A stretch of DNA of 39,896 bases from Anaerolineales bacterium. Its GTDB lineage: Bacteria > Chloroflexota > Anaerolineae > Anaerolineales > UBA6668. Of the stretch, positions 1,688-10,313 are shown one piece after another. The stretch covers positions 1-39,896 of the forward strand of contig JAHDBW010000007.1 in the NCBI GenBank assembly GCA_020630175.1, written 5' to 3'. The notes below the pieces were generated by a model. The model saw only the letters and a list, made by a program, of their open reading frames with translations. It ran no database searches and had not been told where the DNA came from. A program made the position numbers and the translations under genes. Position 1 is the stretch's first letter. Every line of letters begins with the position of its first letter.

Positions 1688-1771
1688 TGGGTAATGGGTA
1701 TTTTTTATTTGTTATTGCACGCCGACGTATTGAGCAAAATAATCATTAACCAATAATCAATGTCCAATAAT
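1685..1771. repeat. heptamer-phased AT-rich repeats between ftsK and moxR
   Basis: On the right side, four 7-base units of the form CAWTNNN begin at 1744, 1751, 1758 and 1765, the last running into the ftsK stop codon. On the left side, units beginning NATT or TATT recur every seven bases from 1685 to about 1719. Segments of the left part (around 1712-1717) are complementary to right-hand units, so an imperfect hairpin is possible. Confidence 0.5.
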
Positions 1772-4308
1772 TATTCGTCTTTCCGCATGTCGGGGTTCAG
1801 TTCAACTTGCTTTTGTTCGTGTTCGTGATTGAAGCGCACTTGGTCGCCAATCGGGTCGTCATCTTTGGCAACAAAGACATCGCGGGTTTTACCACCGGCT
1901 TTTTCGCTGCCCACAATGCCCATTTCTTTGAGCTCATCCATCAAGCGCGCCGCGCGTGGGTAGCCAATGCGCATTTTGCGCTGTAGTAGGCTGGCCGACG
2001 CATTGCCATGCTTTTTGACGATTTCAATCGCTTGCATGATCTGCGGATCTTTGTCGTTTGTGATTTGCTGACGCGCGAGCATGTCATCCCACGGCGCAGC
2101 GGCTTCTGGCACGCCACCATGCGAAGGCCGCGCGGCGTTTGGCGCGCTGCTTGGGCGCTCGGCTTCTTCTTCCGTTTGCTCCCAGTTGTTTTCCCAGAAC
2201 TCGATCATCGCATCGATTTCTTTATCGGAAACAAACACACCCTGCGACCGCAACGGAGCCGAGGCACTCGGCGAGAGATAAAGCATATCGCCTTTGCCAA
2301 GCAACGTCTCCGCACCTAGCGAGTCCAAAATAACGCGGGAGTCGGTTGAAGATGCCACTGAGAACGCAATCCGCGCTGGGAAGTTAGCCTTGAGCAGACC
2401 GGTAACCACGTCCGTACTTGGGCGTTGGGTTGCCACAATCAGGTGCATGCCGGTTGCCCGTGCCATTTGTGCCAAGCGCGAGAGCATTTTTTCAACTTCG
2501 TCAGCAGCCAACATCATCAGGTCGGCCAATTCGTCAATAATAAAGACGATGAACGGCAGCGGTTCGAGCCCTTTGGTTTTCTTGGCCGCGTCGTTATAGC
2601 CCTTGAGATTCCGCACACCCACTTGCTCAAACAAACGGTAGCGGCGCTCCATCTCGCGTACGCCCCAGCGCAGGGTGCCAATCATGCGTTCCATTTCAAC
2701 TTCAACCTTGCCAAACAAGTGCGGCAGGCCGTTGAAGCGCATTAGCTCCACTTTCTTCGGATCTAACATCACAAAGCGCAGTTGGTCGGGCGTGTTGTTG
2801 AAGGCCAGACACGTAATAATCGAGGTCACACAAACAGACTTACCAGAGCCTGTGGTCCCGGCAATCATCAAGTGCGGCATTTTTGCGAGGTCAGCCACCA
2901 CCACTTTGCCAGACACATCGCGCCCTAACCCAAAGGCCAAGGATGATTTCAGCTTGTCATAACTCGGATGCAAGATCAGGCTGCGCAAGCCCACCTTGAA
3001 TTTCTTGCGATTAGGGACTTCAATCCCCACGTAAGACGTCCCACGCACGGGGGCTTCAACGCGCACACGGTTGGCAGACAGCGCCAGCGCCAAGTCATTG
3101 GCAAGGTTTGAAATTTGCGAAATCCGAACCTTGAATTTTTTAGTGGTGCCATCTGGCCCCGGTCTTTCAAAAAAGCCCGGCTCAATCAAATATTGTGTTA
3201 CTGATGGCCCAGTCAGGCTATCGACCACGGTGGCCGGAATGTTGAAGTCGTCTAGCAGGGTTTCAATCCGCTCAATATCGTAAGCAATATCTTTCTTAGA
3301 GGGCTTGATATCTTCGCCCGCATCCAGCATCATCAAATCTGGCAAGGCGCTTGGGCGCTTGCGCGGTTTGTAGTTTGGCTCTTTCTTCGCTTTTGAGGCC
3401 TTGGCTGCTTTGGCCGGTTTAGCCTTAGCCATAGCGGTCTTCGGTGCTGCAATGGCTGCTTTTACCGCTGGCACGTTTGGAATCAGATCTTCTAGCTTTT
3501 TACGCGGCAGGATGTCTTCGTCTAGCTCAGGATCATCAAAGCGGCGCACGAGTGAAGCATCTTCAACGTTGCCCGCAATCTTTGCTTGCACCCAGATCAA
3601 AATATCCAAGGGGAAGGTCCAGCGGATGCGCAACATAAAGGCTAAGGCCAGTACGAGCGTTAAGCTCAACGCTAAGATCGCAGTTGCCCGCAGGAAGCGC
3701 GCAAAGACCCAAGCCACGGCCCAGCCTAGTAAGCCACCGCCGCCACCGTCTGAAGCAAGCTTGATGGCATCAATATGATTGGTGGCATCATAAAGCGTGA
3801 GCTCTGGATTGAGTTGGCGCACTAGCAACAAGTGCAATAACGCCAAGCCCAGCACAACTGCAATCTCGGCCGCAATCACGCGCCGCCACGGAATTACCCG
3901 GTACGGCCGCATGTTGTGAATCACAATCATCACGCCAATTGCCACAATTGTTAGCGGCACAAGGTACGCCCCCCACCCAAGCCACGCCTGCAAAAAAGCA
4001 GACAGGCGGCGGGTCCAGTAACCATCGCTCAGCCCTAACAAAGAGAGAATCGAAACAAAGCCGAAAGCGATCATCACCCAGCCAACGATGTCGTCTAAAC
4101 GGCGCACAAGGCCAATAATAAGTTCAAGCAAAACGCCAAGCGGGCGGTCATACCACCCATCGTTGCCAACATCAGTTTGCTCTGCCACGTCCGCCGTCAT
4201 TTTGCGGGTTTTCGTTGCAGGCGCTTTGGCGCGTTTGGCTTTTGGCTTAGATGTAGCCTTCTTTTTACTACCAGTTTTTGGTGCAGATACCTTTTTCGTT
4301 TTCGTCAT
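1771..4308 (-). CDS. ftsK: FtsK/SpoIIIE-family DNA translocase
   Basis: Membrane-anchored ATP-driven DNA pump that clears chromosome termini from the division septum. The 845-residue protein has, in order: a Lys/Ala/Pro-rich cytoplasmic tail (1-50), about four transmembrane helices (roughly 75-96, 108-130, 140-162, 188-228), a short Lys/Ala linker (about 285-315), the alpha/beta RecA-like motor with Walker A GTTGSGKS at 484-491 and the LADLAKMPHLMIAGT lead-in, the LIVATQRPSTDVVTGLLKANFPARIAF block, and a C-terminal winged-helix gamma domain (about 750-815) that in this family reads oriented DNA motifs. Compared with E. coli FtsK the linker is very short, so this is the SpoIIIE/SftA size class. 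The start is ATG at 4308, with no clear Shine-Dalgarno. Confidence 0.96.
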   Translation of the reverse strand: MTKTKKVSAPKTGSKKKATSKPKAKRAKAPATKTRKMTADVAEQTDVGNDGWYDRPLGVLLELIIGLVRRLDDIVGWVMIAFGFVSILSLLGLSDGYWTRRLSAFLQAWLGWGAYLVPLTIVAIGVMIVIHNMRPYRVIPWRRVIAAEIAVVLGLALLHLLLVRQLNPELTLYDATNHIDAIKLASDGGGGGLLGWAVAWVFARFLRATAILALSLTLVLALAFMLRIRWTFPLDILIWVQAKIAGNVEDASLVRRFDDPELDEDILPRKKLEDLIPNVPAVKAAIAAPKTAMAKAKPAKAAKASKAKKEPNYKPRKRPSALPDLMMLDAGEDIKPSKKDIAYDIERIETLLDDFNIPATVVDSLTGPSVTQYLIEPGFFERPGPDGTTKKFKVRISQISNLANDLALALSANRVRVEAPVRGTSYVGIEVPNRKKFKVGLRSLILHPSYDKLKSSLAFGLGRDVSGKVVVADLAKMPHLMIAGTTGSGKSVCVTSIITCLAFNNTPDQLRFVMLDPKKVELMRFNGLPHLFGKVEVEMERMIGTLRWGVREMERRYRLFEQVGVRNLKGYNDAAKKTKGLEPLPFIVFIIDELADLMMLAADEVEKMLSRLAQMARATGMHLIVATQRPSTDVVTGLLKANFPARIAFSVASSTDSRVILDSLGAETLLGKGDMLYLSPSASAPLRSQGVFVSDKEIDAMIEFWENNWEQTEEEAERPSSAPNAARPSHGGVPEAAAPWDDMLARQQITNDKDPQIMQAIEIVKKHGNASASLLQRKMRIGYPRAARLMDELKEMGIVGSEKAGGKTRDVFVAKDDDPIGDQVRFNHEHEQKQVELNPDMRKDE

Positions 4309-4581: not shown

Positions 4582-5538
4582 TTATTCGCCCAGCTTGCTT
4601 TTGCGCATGGTGAGCCCAAGCTTCCGCTGATTTGGCATAATGTTCACAACACAGGCGTTGATTGTTTCGCCAAGGCTAACCACATTGGCCGGATGCATGA
4701 AGTTCCCTTCTGCCAGTTCACTGGTGTGGATCAACCCTTCAAGACCTGGCTCTAGCGTTACAAACACACCGTAGTCAACAATATTGCTTACTTGGCCTTC
4801 TACAATTTGGCCAACACGATAGCGGTCTTGCACGGTGAGCCATGGATCTGGCGTGAGTTCTTTCAAACTTAGGCTAATACGCCCTTCGTCAGCATTTACG
4901 TTGAGCACTAACGCTTCAATTTCTTGCCCCGGTGACAATACCGCGCTTGGATGTGAAATCCGGCTCCAAGAAATTTGCGAAACGTGAACGAGCCCTTCAA
5001 CACCACCCAGATCGACAAACGCTCCAAAATGGCGCGTGTTTGTCACAATACCGCGAACTTTATCGCCCGGGCGGATTTTGTACAAAATCACTTCCCGTGC
5101 GCCCGGCTGAGATAGCGCAGCCCGTTCAGATAAGATCAGACGCTGTTGCTTTTCGTCTAGTTCAATAATTTTTAGACGTAAGCCTTCACCAACGCGGCGG
5201 CTCAAAAGCGCCTTGCGATGGGCATCAGAAATATCAGTTGGTAAATTTAGAATGTGGGATGCTGGCACAAAGCCCCGCACCATATCCCATTTGACAAGTA
5301 AGCCACCACGATTGAAGCCAATCACTTCTAGCTCAACTGTGTCATCTGAGACATAGGTTTGATGAATTTTTACCCAAGTGTCTTGGTAGTCTGCGTAAGC
5401 ATATGATGTGGCATGCTCTGGTTGTGCAGGACTACTTGATACAGTGTCACTGTCACCTTCGCTTAATATTTGTTGCCACCAGCTTTCATCTACCCCAGAT
5501 GGATCGGACCCCATTTTGTCCGATGAATGAGAAGACAT
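4582..5538 (-). CDS. S1-domain RNA-binding protein (ribosomal protein S1-like)
   Basis: RNA-binding protein of 318 residues with an acidic, Ser-rich N-terminus (1-55) and three S1/OB-fold repeats at about 62-138, 156-227 and 241-313. The second repeat has the canonical HFGAFVDLGGVEGLVHVSQIS pattern and the third has DYGVFVTLEPGLEGLIHTSEL. E. coli S1 has six repeats; three- or four-repeat forms serve as S1-like proteins in many Gram-positive and deep-branching phyla. A role in mRNA recruitment to the 30S subunit is inferred. The ATG at 5538 is preferred to an in-frame codon at 5568 because AGGGG sits 7 bases upstream of it. The gene is monocistronic, ending in a strong terminator. Confidence 0.9.
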   Translation of the reverse strand: MSSHSSDKMGSDPSGVDESWWQQILSEGDSDTVSSSPAQPEHATSYAYADYQDTWVKIHQTYVSDDTVELEVIGFNRGGLLVKWDMVRGFVPASHILNLPTDISDAHRKALLSRRVGEGLRLKIIELDEKQQRLILSERAALSQPGAREVILYKIRPGDKVRGIVTNTRHFGAFVDLGGVEGLVHVSQISWSRISHPSAVLSPGQEIEALVLNVNADEGRISLSLKELTPDPWLTVQDRYRVGQIVEGQVSNIVDYGVFVTLEPGLEGLIHTSELAEGNFMHPANVVSLGETINACVVNIMPNQRKLGLTMRKSKLGE

Positions 5539-5986
5539 ACATTTACCCCTTATTACCCAAAATAGCAATTTTAATGTCAGAAACTGCTTGCATAATCCAT
5601 TACAACCTCAGATATGACGCCAAATGCATAAATTTGACTCTTACCAATACAACTCTAATTAAATTTAGCACGAAACAGCATAATTTTGATGGTTTTGTGC
5701 AAGCAAAATTAATATTGAGTGTATGTCTATCTGTTTTTTGTGAATGAAGGCGATTTTCGGTAATAGCCTAAGGGAGTTGCATCTTCGCTTAAGCTAACCT
5801 AACAGGTTGCAAGACTAGTTTCGTAGTACTTTCTGATTTAGGCAGTCCTGTTTATTACACACCATGAAATCTTTTCGTAACCCATCGTACTACGATTCCA
5901 ACCAAATACAAAGGAATTTCTAATTATTGCTAACTTTTAGCAAACATTTACATGTTCTCTACCTAAATAGTGGCGTCTAGTGCGCT
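5539..5986. other. AT-rich intergenic region
   Basis: This gap of about 450 bases lies upstream of the S1-domain gene and downstream of the 7TM/GAF gene. I see no convincing gene. It holds a small hairpin at 5927-5943 and a 13-base palindrome at 5884-5896 (ATCGTA-C-TACGAT), with a partial copy (GTAGTAC) near 5824. The S1-gene promoter must lie near its left end, but I could not pick a confident -35/-10 pair. Confidence 0.5.
5927..5943 (-). terminator. weak stem-loop after the 7TM/GAF gene
   Basis: A perfect 7-bp stem (TTGCTAA, 3-base loop, TTAGCAA) lies 43 bases after the stop of the 7TM/GAF gene. It is followed on the minus strand by an AT-rich stretch but no true T run, so its role as terminator is uncertain. 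Confidence 0.35.
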
Positions 5987-7957
5987 TCAATCGCCAACCT
6001 GCCGGTTTTCCATCGATGCAATCACCCGCGCAACTTCTTCAACGGCAACCCGCTGTTTACGGTATAAATCCGCCTCGGACACTGCCAATTTAAGTGCGAC
6101 TTCACGCACCTTCTTACCTTCCATGAACTTAAGTTCCAAAATATTGTAAAGCAGCCAGTCTGCTGTAAATTTACGATTACCGGGCGGCTTGATTTCTTCA
6201 ATGGCATCCTTCAACAGCAGGCGCAGCGCATTGACGGTGCTGTCATTATTTTGATCAGCCAACGTTTGCACCACTTGCAGCCGCAACAGCGGGTTCTCTG
6301 TAAGTTTGGGGCCACCCCAATAATGGGTAAGCGCGTCCTTCACCCACTTTGCAGCGTCTGGGCTTTCAAGCAAGGTGTTCTTTTGAATTGCCTGACTGCC
6401 CGTATATTGCGCCGCCGCCCGCAAGCGTTGGAGTTCATCAACTTGCACCAGCAAAGTATCCATCGCATCAAACACGCGTTGTTGCAATCGCATATCTTCT
6501 AACGCGGATGCGGTCTGATCAATCAAGGTATTGAGCGTGTCGCGTTCGTCTTCGGTAAATTCAAGCGCATCAGCAGCAGCTTCAACGCCCAGCACGCCTA
6601 GCACTTCACCGGCTTCGGCTAGCCCATCTTGATCGGACTGCGCCCGGAGCGGGAACAACCAATACGTTTCCCAACGCAATGCCTGCGTGCTACCCAGTAC
6701 GGCAACCGGGTGCAGTTCAGAGGCCGCAGTTTCCAGCGGCAGATCGCCTGCTTCAGGCAAACTCTGCTTCGCCCCAATCGAAACTTCCAAACGTGGGCCT
6801 TCTGGCGTGATTACCGCTACAAATCCGTTAGAGACATGCACAACATCACAAGCAGTGGCAAGCACAATTTCTAAGAACTGGCGGATATCAGCTGAGGTTA
6901 GCAGGCGCTCGTTTAGCGTACGCAGACGCTTGAGGTCTTCACGGTCACTGGCATTGCCATAGAAAAACCAGCGTTCAAATGTATTCCGCGAAATGGAAAA
7001 GGCAAACTGCGGCAGCATCGCCGCCACCACAATCAAACTGGGTAAGAGTAGCGTGTTGTTGATATCAAAGCGACGCCCCGCCCAGCGCATCGTGACATAG
7101 GTTGCCACAATCAAAGACGCCACAAACGGACCGCGGTATGTCCAACGGAACAAACGGCTTTTTACAATCCGGTCGGGCTGTGGCGTGCCAAAGAAAGAGA
7201 CCGTGTAGGTGAGTACAATCAGCATTGCGCCCAAAAATCCATTTACCAATGTAGTAATGAATAAAAAGACAAACGGTTGCGCGACGGCAACTTGCTCACC
7301 AGCGACCAACAAATAGGGAAATACCCCAAACGGAATAGCCAGCGATGCCGTTAGCAAGTAGCCCATCCGGCGGCGGGTGGCCCGCGTGAGGCAGCGGTTG
7401 TAGGCGCGATAAATATTGAATGCGCCAAACAAAATCGCTAGCACACAGCCAACAGAAAACGGCCAGAACAACACACCGGGGCGCAAGTAACGAATGAACG
7501 TGGTGATTTCAATATCTCGCACGAGATAATCACTAAACACAACAAGCACAGCCATCACGATACAAATCAAATATGTAACGCGCACCCCTAAACGGCGGCG
7601 GCCACGTGAGGGCTGCCCAGTAAGCGCTAGCAACGCATCCGAAAGGTGCAGGTATGTGGCTGGTACGCCAACAAGACCCACCATCTGTACTTTTAGCCAG
7701 AATGCAATTGTCGGCTCATCCTGCAAAATAGAGGCCGCGATATCCCCCAAGTAAATGACAACCACACAACTTAATAACAAGCTAAATGAGCGCGCGGCGC
7801 GGTCACGCAAGTTAAAAGTGAGGGTATACAGCAGCAATGACGCGGCTGTAATCAACACGGCAACCGAGATAATCTCGTTGAATAAGGTGACCGCGTTGCT
7901 AAGAATTTCTAGCATTTCGTTTGGAGGAAGGACATCAGGCCAGCGACTTGTGGCCAA
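5987..7957 (-). CDS. Multi-pass membrane sensor with GAF domain and C-terminal sigma-4-like HTH
   Basis: A 656-residue protein. Residues 20-255 hold seven hydrophobic helices like the 7TM sensor region of some histidine kinases, with two more at about 275-320. A soluble region with GAF-like composition follows (about 345-500), then a helical segment. The C-terminus (611-648) reads EGKKVREVALKLAVSEADLY and continues to EEVARV, a pattern close to sigma-70 region 4 or LuxR helix-turn-helix motifs. No kinase core is present (no phospho-acceptor H box, no N/G1/G2 boxes). I infer a membrane-bound sensory regulator rather than a kinase; ligand and target are unknown. The start is TTG at 7957 with a weak AGGGA upstream; ATG 7915 is an alternative that loses only 14 residues. 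The acetyltransferase gene ends 17 bases upstream, suggesting cotranscription. Confidence 0.75.
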   Translation of the reverse strand: MATSRWPDVLPPNEMLEILSNAVTLFNEIISVAVLITAASLLLYTLTFNLRDRAARSFSLLLSCVVVIYLGDIAASILQDEPTIAFWLKVQMVGLVGVPATYLHLSDALLALTGQPSRGRRRLGVRVTYLICIVMAVLVVFSDYLVRDIEITTFIRYLRPGVLFWPFSVGCVLAILFGAFNIYRAYNRCLTRATRRRMGYLLTASLAIPFGVFPYLLVAGEQVAVAQPFVFLFITTLVNGFLGAMLIVLTYTVSFFGTPQPDRIVKSRLFRWTYRGPFVASLIVATYVTMRWAGRRFDINNTLLLPSLIVVAAMLPQFAFSISRNTFERWFFYGNASDREDLKRLRTLNERLLTSADIRQFLEIVLATACDVVHVSNGFVAVITPEGPRLEVSIGAKQSLPEAGDLPLETAASELHPVAVLGSTQALRWETYWLFPLRAQSDQDGLAEAGEVLGVLGVEAAADALEFTEDERDTLNTLIDQTASALEDMRLQQRVFDAMDTLLVQVDELQRLRAAAQYTGSQAIQKNTLLESPDAAKWVKDALTHYWGGPKLTENPLLRLQVVQTLADQNNDSTVNALRLLLKDAIEEIKPPGNRKFTADWLLYNILELKFMEGKKVREVALKLAVSEADLYRKQRVAVEEVARVIASMENRQVGD

Positions 7958-7974
7958 GCACTATCCCTGATTAC

Positions 7975-8529
7975 TTAGAGTGTGAGGGTAAAGTACAGCG
8001 CAATATCGTTGTTGAGGTAATATCGCTCATTGTACCCACTGTGGGCAAAGCCGTGCTTACGCAAAAAGTCAATTGCTGGCGCGTTTTTTGTTTGAACTTC
8101 TGCAGTAACGCGTTCATAGCCGTTTTGTAGCGCCCAGTCTAAGCAGCCGTGCATCAACGTACTGCCAACGCCTTTCCGGCGATGGTATTTTGTGACGACA
8201 CAGTCTGCCAAGTGCGCAACGCCCGGCAACGGGCTTTGATTTAAAGCAACATAGCCTTCAATCGTTTCATCAACTTCAGCCACAATTAGTAATGGGAAGC
8301 GCTTCCAGTTCTTGAGCGATTCTTCTGGATCGCGCGGGAAGTTAACGCGCATTGTGCGCGGCAAGCGGATATTCCGAAAGTTAATATTCGTTGTGCGGTC
8401 TTCTTCGCGGATATCCATTTGCCACACATAGTCGGTGGTGTACCCATGATCAAAACGCGTTAGTAATGGAATATCACGCGCGCGGGCCGTGCGAAGCGTA
8501 ATTTTTTGGCTTTTTTTGTTAGGAAGCAT
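7975..8529 (-). CDS. GNAT-family N-acetyltransferase
   Basis: A 184-residue acetyl-CoA-dependent acetyltransferase. The motif A pyrophosphate-binding signature (Q/R-x-x-G-x-G) is present as RRKGVG at 117-122, preceded by the beta-4 strand HLADCVVTKY. The C-terminal half has the DWALQNGYERVTAEVQTKNAPAIDFLRKHGF pattern typical of GNAT motif B. The N-terminal part (about 40-75) is unusually long and basic. The substrate cannot be read from sequence. It sits immediately upstream of the 7TM/GAF/HTH gene, 17 bases apart, and the two probably form an operon, so it may act in the same response. The start is ATG at 8529 without a good Shine-Dalgarno. Confidence 0.85.
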   Translation of the reverse strand: MLPNKKSQKITLRTARARDIPLLTRFDHGYTTDYVWQMDIREEDRTTNINFRNIRLPRTMRVNFPRDPEESLKNWKRFPLLIVAEVDETIEGYVALNQSPLPGVAHLADCVVTKYHRRKGVGSTLMHGCLDWALQNGYERVTAEVQTKNAPAIDFLRKHGFAHSGYNERYYLNNDIALYFTLTL

Positions 8530-8683: not shown

Positions 8684-9409
8684 TTATTGGCTAGGTTGCC
8701 CACCAATCGTAATGGGGATAATACAAGGCTCTGGCGCACCACCACTACTGTTATAAACAGTTAGCCGGAAAGCATAGTTACCAGGCTCTTGTAGATCTGC
8801 ATTCCAAGACCCCATTGGGCCACCATCTTCTGAGGTCGATTCATTACCGGTATATACAGTTAGCCAGTTTTCACCCAGTGTAGAAAGTTCAAGCACATAG
8901 AACGCAAAATTATCAATAGCCGCCACGCCCTGCACTTCAACCAGACCAGACACAATTGCACCTGCCAGCGGACTAGTCAACGTTGATTTTGGACTGTCAC
9001 AGCCCGCAGTGGCGTCTACTACCGGCGTTGAGCTGGGCACTGGGGTTGGTGTTTCTAAAATAGGTGCTTCCGTTGCGCCGGGTAATTCAGGCGCAGCTCT
9101 GGTGGCCTCCTCAGTTGGCACGCGGGTTGGAAATTCCGTTGGAAAAGCGTCTGCCAAATTGAAGACATCAAGTGCCGCTGGCGTGGTGACAATCAACAGC
9201 GCGCTAATACAAGAAATTACAATTAACAACGCTGATAACGCAATTGCACGATTCGCAGACGCCGTCTCCCGTTCTAGTCCATATGCGCTGGCGGCGTAAC
9301 GCCTGCCCCAATGGAACAAGCCGCGCACATACCATAGGCCAATCAAGGCCAATATGCCCACGACATAATAACGAAATTCAACGACGAGCCGAACAATTTG
9401 TTGAGTCAA
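8684..9409 (-). CDS. Membrane-anchored protein with extracytoplasmic Ig-like domain
   Basis: A 241-residue protein without a named family that I recognise. Two hydrophobic helices (about 13-32 and 53-80) are followed by a Thr/Pro/Glu-rich linker (about 88-135, with repeated PTEE, PTPVPSSTP-like words) and a beta-rich C-terminal domain (about 136-238) resembling Big/Ig-like modules, with two Cys (about 138 and 229) that could pair. The layout suggests a short cytoplasmic loop and an outward-facing domain. The start is TTG at 9409; no in-frame ATG gives a complete first helix. It follows the purine nucleoside phosphorylase gene after 64 bases containing a hairpin, so it is probably the last gene of that cluster. 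Confidence 0.65.
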   Translation of the reverse strand: MTQQIVRLVVEFRYYVVGILALIGLWYVRGLFHWGRRYAASAYGLERETASANRAIALSALLIVISCISALLIVTTPAALDVFNLADAFPTEFPTRVPTEEATRAAPELPGATEAPILETPTPVPSSTPVVDATAGCDSPKSTLTSPLAGAIVSGLVEVQGVAAIDNFAFYVLELSTLGENWLTVYTGNESTSEDGGPMGSWNADLQEPGNYAFRLTVYNSSGGAPEPCIIPITIGGQPSQ

Positions 9410-9473: not shown

Positions 9474-10313
9474 TTAGATGTCAAGCCGCGCTAATAACGT
9501 TTGCAATAAGCGCGTCAGATTTGGTGCAATTACTTTGCCCGCCTCAATCACTTCTTCATGATTTGGGGCGTCGCCGTCCCCTAAATTACAGATGTTGGTT
9601 ACCCCTGAAAAGCCCAGCACACGCATGCCAGCATGGACAGCCGTCACCACTTCATGCGTAGTAGACATTCCCACTGCATCAGCACCAACAGCCTGTAAAA
9701 AACGGATTTCAGCAATCGTTTCATACGTTGGGCCAGAAAGCGCCATGTAAACGCCTTTTTGCATTGTCAGCGCTAGTTCGTCTGCTACAACGGTTGCTAG
9801 GCTCCGCAACTGCGGATCATAAGCATCTGTCATACTTGGGAAACGCGGGCCAAATTCTGGCACATTAGGCCCAAACAACGGATTTTGCCCAATCATGCCC
9901 GGCAGGTTGATATGGTCATCAATTAACATGATATCGCCTACAGAAAAGCTTTGGTTGACGCCACCCGCCGCATTCGTAATGATCATCATCTCAACGCCCA
10001 ACAGCTTCATGACCCGCACTGGTAGCCCAACTTGCTGCATCGTGTAGCCTTCATAAAAATGCGAACGGCCTTGCATCACAATAACATCGTGACCAGCCAA
10101 CTTGCCAATTACCAAGCGCCCCGAATGCCCTTCAACGGTTGAAACAGGCCAATTGGGCAGCTCTCCGTATGGGATGTAAATCGCATCTTCCACCGCGTCT
10201 GCTAACGGCCCTAAGCCGGAGCCTAAAATCATGCCAATGCGTGGCGCAATGGAAATTCGGCTTTGGATTGCTGCGGCTGTTTCTTGATAATCTGCAAGTG
10301 AAAAATAAGTCAT
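9474..10313 (-). CDS. punA: Purine nucleoside phosphorylase (trimeric type)
   Basis: Phosphorolysis of inosine/guanosine-type nucleosides to free base and ribose-1-phosphate in purine salvage. The 279-residue length and motifs match the trimeric PNP/MTAP family: phosphate-binding GSGLG (31-35) and RSHFYEGY (83-90, His84), TNAAGG (113-118), GPTYET with the base-binding Glu198, VGMSTTHE (Met216) and TNICNLGDG with Asn240. Glu plus Asn at the base site points to 6-oxopurine specificity rather than methylthioadenosine. Its placement behind MoxR/DUF58 membrane-associated genes, 21 bases after the preceding gene, is unusual for salvage enzymes. The start is ATG at 10313. Confidence 0.95.
   Translation of the reverse strand: MTYFSLADYQETAAAIQSRISIAPRIGMILGSGLGPLADAVEDAIYIPYGELPNWPVSTVEGHSGRLVIGKLAGHDVIVMQGRSHFYEGYTMQQVGLPVRVMKLLGVEMMIITNAAGGVNQSFSVGDIMLIDDHINLPGMIGQNPLFGPNVPEFGPRFPSMTDAYDPQLRSLATVVADELALTMQKGVYMALSGPTYETIAEIRFLQAVGADAVGMSTTHEVVTAVHAGMRVLGFSGVTNICNLGDGDAPNHEEVIEAGKVIAPNLTRLLQTLLARLDI

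Follow-up and report, generated by a model that had tools for sequence, protein, structure and literature searches.

The gene at positions 5987–7957 on the minus strand of the 39,896-nt stretch of Anaerolineales DNA analyzed here (the window) raises the question of what a protein does that begins like the sensor of a histidine kinase and ends in a helix-turn-helix (HTH). We analyzed its architecture, its relatives and its genomic setting to assess what kind of signaling protein it encodes.

Results

A nine-helix sensor that lacks a kinase core

The open reading frame as given begins with TTG and comprises 656 codons plus the stop (5987–7957, minus strand). In an alignment of 28 orthologues, the relatives start at the ATG of codon 15 or nearby. 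The ATG at 7915 is therefore the probable start, rather than the TTG at 7957, and the real coding sequence is probably 5987–7915 (minus strand). From N to C terminus, the protein consists of nine membrane helices, a GAF domain, a long linker helix and a C-terminal module with a terminal HTH. A model of the full-length protein (pLDDT 68) shows seven plus two membrane helices, the strands of the GAF domain and the long linker helix. When this model was compared with the PDB using Foldseek, solely animal 7TM receptors were returned, a match of shape that is uninformative.

The membrane region (residues 16–332; 6962–7912, minus strand) was delimited from the helices of the model, hydropathy and loop charge over the 28 orthologues. 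Model and hydropathy both give nine predicted helices, as counted in a preliminary description of this DNA, and not the seven implied by the title of that description. Within this region, residues 35–250 (7208–7855, minus strand) match HisKA_7TM (Pfam PF16927, E 1.1e-7) with a score of 32.4 bits versus a curated cut-off of 28.6. The GAF domain follows at residues 356–487 (6497–6892, minus strand), indicated by a GAF_2/GAF_3 match slightly below the Pfam cut-off (E 2e-5) and by alpha/beta elements in the model. The linker helix, residues 469–517 (6407–6553, minus strand), runs from the GAF domain to the module and is modeled with low confidence at its end. Across the whole protein, Pfam gave no match to HisKA, HATPase_c, Sigma70_r2 or GerE. 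Thus, the initial reading of a kinase-like sensor without a catalytic core holds: HisKA_7TM and GAF are present, the catalytic core (HisKA plus HATPase_c) is missing, and the C terminus models as an HTH module instead.

Loop charge, averaged over the 28 orthologues, alternates between strongly positive and neutral. By the positive-inside rule, the predicted topology is N-out/C-in. This placement of the positive loops would put the GAF domain and the C-terminal parts, including the HTH, on the cytoplasmic side, in agreement with the earlier proposal of a cytoplasmic HTH.

The C-terminal module resembles sigma region 4

An HTH had been proposed for the last 40 residues. An HTH is indeed found there (residues 599–655; 5993–6163, minus strand; AlphaFold2, Foldseek and hhalign), not as a stand-alone tail but as the end of a module of ∼125 residues (528–656; 5990–6376, minus strand) made of a helical N-lobe and a sigma4-like C-lobe. 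Modeled alone, the C-terminal 129 residues reached a pLDDT of 88. In this model, short helices make up the N-lobe, the C-lobe ends in the HTH helices 599–612, 617–624 and 628–655, and strands are absent. The string cited for the HTH in the preliminary description, EGKKVREVALKLAVSEADLY, corresponds to residues 613–632. No Pfam family covers the module.

Foldseek comparison of the module with the PDB returned mostly sigma region 4 among the top matches, including SigL with RslA, SigD, and E. coli sigmaE region 4 on –35 DNA, the last with a TM-score of 0.71–0.73 by target length. The best E-value was 0.037; no match fell below 0.001, and none is significant alone. When a profile of 64 modules was compared by hhalign with one for region 4 of the sigma factors encoded in the same genome, the alignment spanned 62 columns, among them the helix preceding the HTH, at a probability of 94.8%. 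A control profile built from the other HTHs of the same genome gave 93.6%, but only across the 31-column HTH core. This favors resemblance to sigma region 4 over other HTHs. Single-sequence HMM matches to sigma domains were weak (SigG, E = 0.12; sigma70-ECF, E = 0.41), and PHROG entries for transcription regulators/sigma factors matched the module with E = 1e-4 for the window and down to 5e-7 for relatives. A PDB profile search with the module gave marginal matches to an unrelated lyase only.

The module is thus sigma4-like by fold and profile, while no curated sigma or DNA-binding family model reaches its cut-off. Together, the conservation of the HTH (see below), the confident model and the Foldseek matches show that the resemblance exceeds chance. 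The preliminary description had left a choice between a sigma-4 and a LuxR HTH. Foldseek and hhalign support the former, and the latter falls away, with GerE unmatched and the non-sigma HTH profile aligning across only 31 columns. Because region 2 is missing, the protein is not a sigma factor.

The gene is a core gene of the Anaerolineae

Rather than an unusual, isolated protein, as first supposed, we found a gene common to the whole class. Among near-complete genomes, an orthologue was found in 43/43 from the same order and in 101/103 from the class Anaerolineae, normally as a single copy. Of 53 near-complete genomes from a second class of Chloroflexota, probably Chloroflexia, 24 carry it, in certain families only; none of 35 genomes of a third class does. 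In the gene tree, the order forms a single group with full support, and the tree broadly tracks taxonomy. Judged by distribution and tree, this is a vertically inherited core gene of the class and not a local oddity. Searches of plasmid and viral collections yielded no relative, and we found no paper on the protein or its module in the open-access literature.

Synteny defines a conserved neighborhood in the order. The usual block contains, in sequence, a purine nucleoside phosphorylase gene (9474–10313; Pfam PNP_UDP_1), a gene for a 241-aa membrane protein that is hydrophobic near its N terminus and matches no Pfam family (8684–9409), a GNAT acetyltransferase gene (7975–8529; Pfam Acetyltransf_1, 1e-19), the sensor gene, a gene for an S1-domain RNA-binding protein (4582–5568; three Pfam S1 matches) and an FtsK/SpoIIIE translocase gene (1771–4308; Pfam FtsK_SpoIIIE), all on the minus strand and mostly separated by short gaps. 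Throughout the order, the 8684–9409 gene stays between the phosphorylase and GNAT genes. At one locus (L099), unlike the others, the gap between the GNAT gene and the orthologue measures 177 bases and contains large inverted repeats (GGGTGTGCGCAGGGGG...).

The GNAT gene lies directly upstream at 21/25 loci in the order and at 4/8 in the other orders of the class, and some of the misses probably reflect long antisense open reading frames preferred by the simple gene caller. It is thus a conserved operon neighbor in the order. Since the GNAT gene belongs to a housekeeping block and is missing next to the orthologues of the second class, its functional link to the sensor, as the part in the response suggested in the preliminary description, is only putative; the association is real as gene order in one lineage, which does not amount to evidence of common function. 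Different neighbors occur in two families of the second class (f35 and f45). Here, genes for receiver, hybrid-kinase and GGDEF-type proteins (L129–L131) or, alternatively, for a receiver-GGDEF protein (L124, L126) lie downstream of the orthologue, with the GGDEF labels assigned by eye. In one example (L129:5325–12093), the genes downstream of the orthologue encode a receiver protein, a GAF-PAS-hybrid kinase and a receiver-GGDEF protein, and they overlap or almost touch. These neighbors are a possible phosphorelay partner set.

We also looked for regulatory sites. Footprinting upstream of 19 orthologues (two families of the second class) revealed only an ordinary sigma70-type TATAAT promoter and no regulator site. 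Scans for promoters, terminators and inverted repeats near the gene, and of the intergenic repeats of the window, gave nothing over chance.

The module occurs in other architectures

The module profile, searched against Chloroflexota genomes, plasmids and viral contigs, also recovers weaker copies in other Chloroflexota proteins. Architectures were assigned with Pfam on one or two examples per type and by eye for the remainder. The module is N-terminal to STAND/AAA-TPR proteins (L074, L080, L088, L093) and to TPR-DeoR-type proteins (L086, L087), and N-terminal in proteins that have a receiver domain at the C terminus (L075, L077, L079, L081, L082). It is C-terminal to nSTAND ATPases (L083, L092), and further membrane proteins likewise carry it at the C terminus (L044, from the same genome, and L076, L078, L084, L090, L091). 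Its presence on STAND, receiver and TPR proteins is what would be expected of an exchangeable output domain.

The copy in L044 (G000:C283:22488–22742), a second membrane protein encoded in this genome, is degenerate: its HTH region is interrupted by a long insertion, and the usual recognition motif is missing. L091 has the same variant. In all five receiver-domain proteins, a HATPase-like stretch without an H-box is visible by eye between module and receiver. One genome (G184) holds 11 copies of the module.

The recognition helix is nearly constant

The HTH is near-invariant in the 28 orthologues, down to ∼37% identity to the window. In this set, the GAF domain averages 36% pairwise identity and the first seven membrane helices 46%; the sigma4-like part reaches 71%, and the HTH core, at 79%, is conserved more strongly than any other part of the protein. 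The recognition-type helix (residues 628–655; 5993–6076, minus strand) opens with the invariant SEAD, RKQ motif. A helical-wheel projection puts R633 directly across from the hydrophobic side, with R636 and A629 also exposed; R633, R636 and K634 are the conserved Arg/Lys residues of the exposed and flanking faces. The same surface also holds acidic D630 (invariant) and E640 (mostly conserved). The model therefore shows both a trihelical HTH and a basic recognition face, as expected from the preliminary description, with two acidic residues on that face, and the invariant E628 and D630 mean that the helix is not strongly basic. The positions that we take to be the usual –35 contacts of sigma factors carry different residues in the module.

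As the recognition helix is near-identical across the class, the site that it reads is probably identical everywhere, as for a global and not a local regulator. Such constancy points to a single, unchanging target. Extreme HTH conservation could equally reflect a fixed protein partner. The module would then be a protein-interaction unit, a mimic of sigma region 4 that binds an anti-sigma factor, a receiver protein or the RNA polymerase flap, by analogy with the sigma-like domain of PhyR and its partner NepR. Several observations fit this. Complexes of sigma4 with anti-sigma factors (3hug, 3vep) are among the best fold matches, with PhyR ranking lower; near-invariance of the HTH extends to its acidic residues; and in the second class, receiver-protein and hybrid-kinase genes lie downstream, overlapping or nearly so. 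Yet no nearby anti-sigma gene was recognized, the protein has no region 2 match, and the exposed face of the recognition helix bears conserved Arg. On balance, we regard a purely protein-binding module as unlikely, and DNA as the better candidate for its target.

Two further alternatives fare worse. Regulated proteolysis at the linker could free the module as a soluble DNA-binding protein, and residues 498–533 are both the lowest-confidence stretch of the model and devoid of any invariant column. But the conserved neighborhood contains no protease gene, and cleavage has nothing specific behind it. An apparent natural split into a sensor and a free HTH (in G003) is an artefact, as the break falls on an NN assembly gap (L177:418–542). 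We consider this scenario very unlikely. It is scarcely credible that the protein is a dead or partner-dependent kinase remnant acting only via heterodimers with true kinases: HisKA_7TM and GAF are found in kinases, and kinase genes are adjacent in part of the second class, but the C terminus is the best conserved part rather than a decayed one, and the conserved block of the order contains no kinase.

Discussion

Our analysis suggests that this gene probably encodes a membrane-embedded, multi-pass one-component transcription regulator that binds DNA. In the mechanism we propose, the nine-helix membrane part and the cytoplasmic GAF domain would sense a signal, which the long linker helix would pass on, probably through a rearrangement of the dimer like that of histidine kinases. 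The module, with its helical N-lobe and sigma region 4-like HTH, would then bind DNA at a conserved promoter site while still anchored in the membrane. Dimerization, ligand control and DNA binding are elements that we infer, as is the identity of the regulon.

One-component membrane regulators are an already known kind. Transmembrane transcription regulators (TTRs: ToxR, CadC, BcrR; PMC10269533) similarly join membrane helices and a cytoplasmic HTH in one protein, so that a phosphorelay is unnecessary. TTRs are mostly single-pass (56%) and use few catalogued DNA-binding domains (PMC10269533), whereas the Anaerolineae protein has nine helices, a GAF domain, an output module outside Pfam and the status of a class-wide core gene. 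DNA-binding domains of the ChiS family, present on 7TMR-DISM receptors (PMC8092284), provide a precedent for the principle of combining a 7TM part with a DNA-binding domain, and there too a kinase-type or 7TM sensor ends in a cryptic HTH variant. However, the ChiS domain is a helix-sheet-helix variant reported in Proteobacteria, while the module described here is sigma4-like and was found in Chloroflexota; moreover, ChiS itself is a hybrid sensor kinase, and the Anaerolineae protein has no kinase core. The last ∼80 residues of the module share fold and profile with region 4 of ECF sigma factors; in contrast to the sigma-70 family, region 2 is missing. With HisKA_7TM and 7TM-GAF histidine kinases, the protein shares the membrane part and GAF domain but has neither a DHp nor an ATPase domain. 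The novelty lies in the output module of sigma4 type and in the gene's place in the core genome of its class.

A bolder version is conceivable, and we hold it to be rather improbable: the protein would be a membrane-bound, sigma-like global regulator in the Anaerolineae, recognizing a single conserved promoter element and at the same time contacting RNA polymerase via its sigma4-like lobe, and the module would found a new output-domain family in Chloroflexota, common to STAND, receiver and membrane regulators.

As a probable regulator of transcription, the protein is near-universal and single-copy in a large, poorly studied class and still nameless. Because Pfam has no model for its output domain, surveys that use catalogued DNA-binding domains could miss it. 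The sigma4-like output module is combined in several architectures, and the protein offers a concrete target toward a core Chloroflexota signaling pathway.
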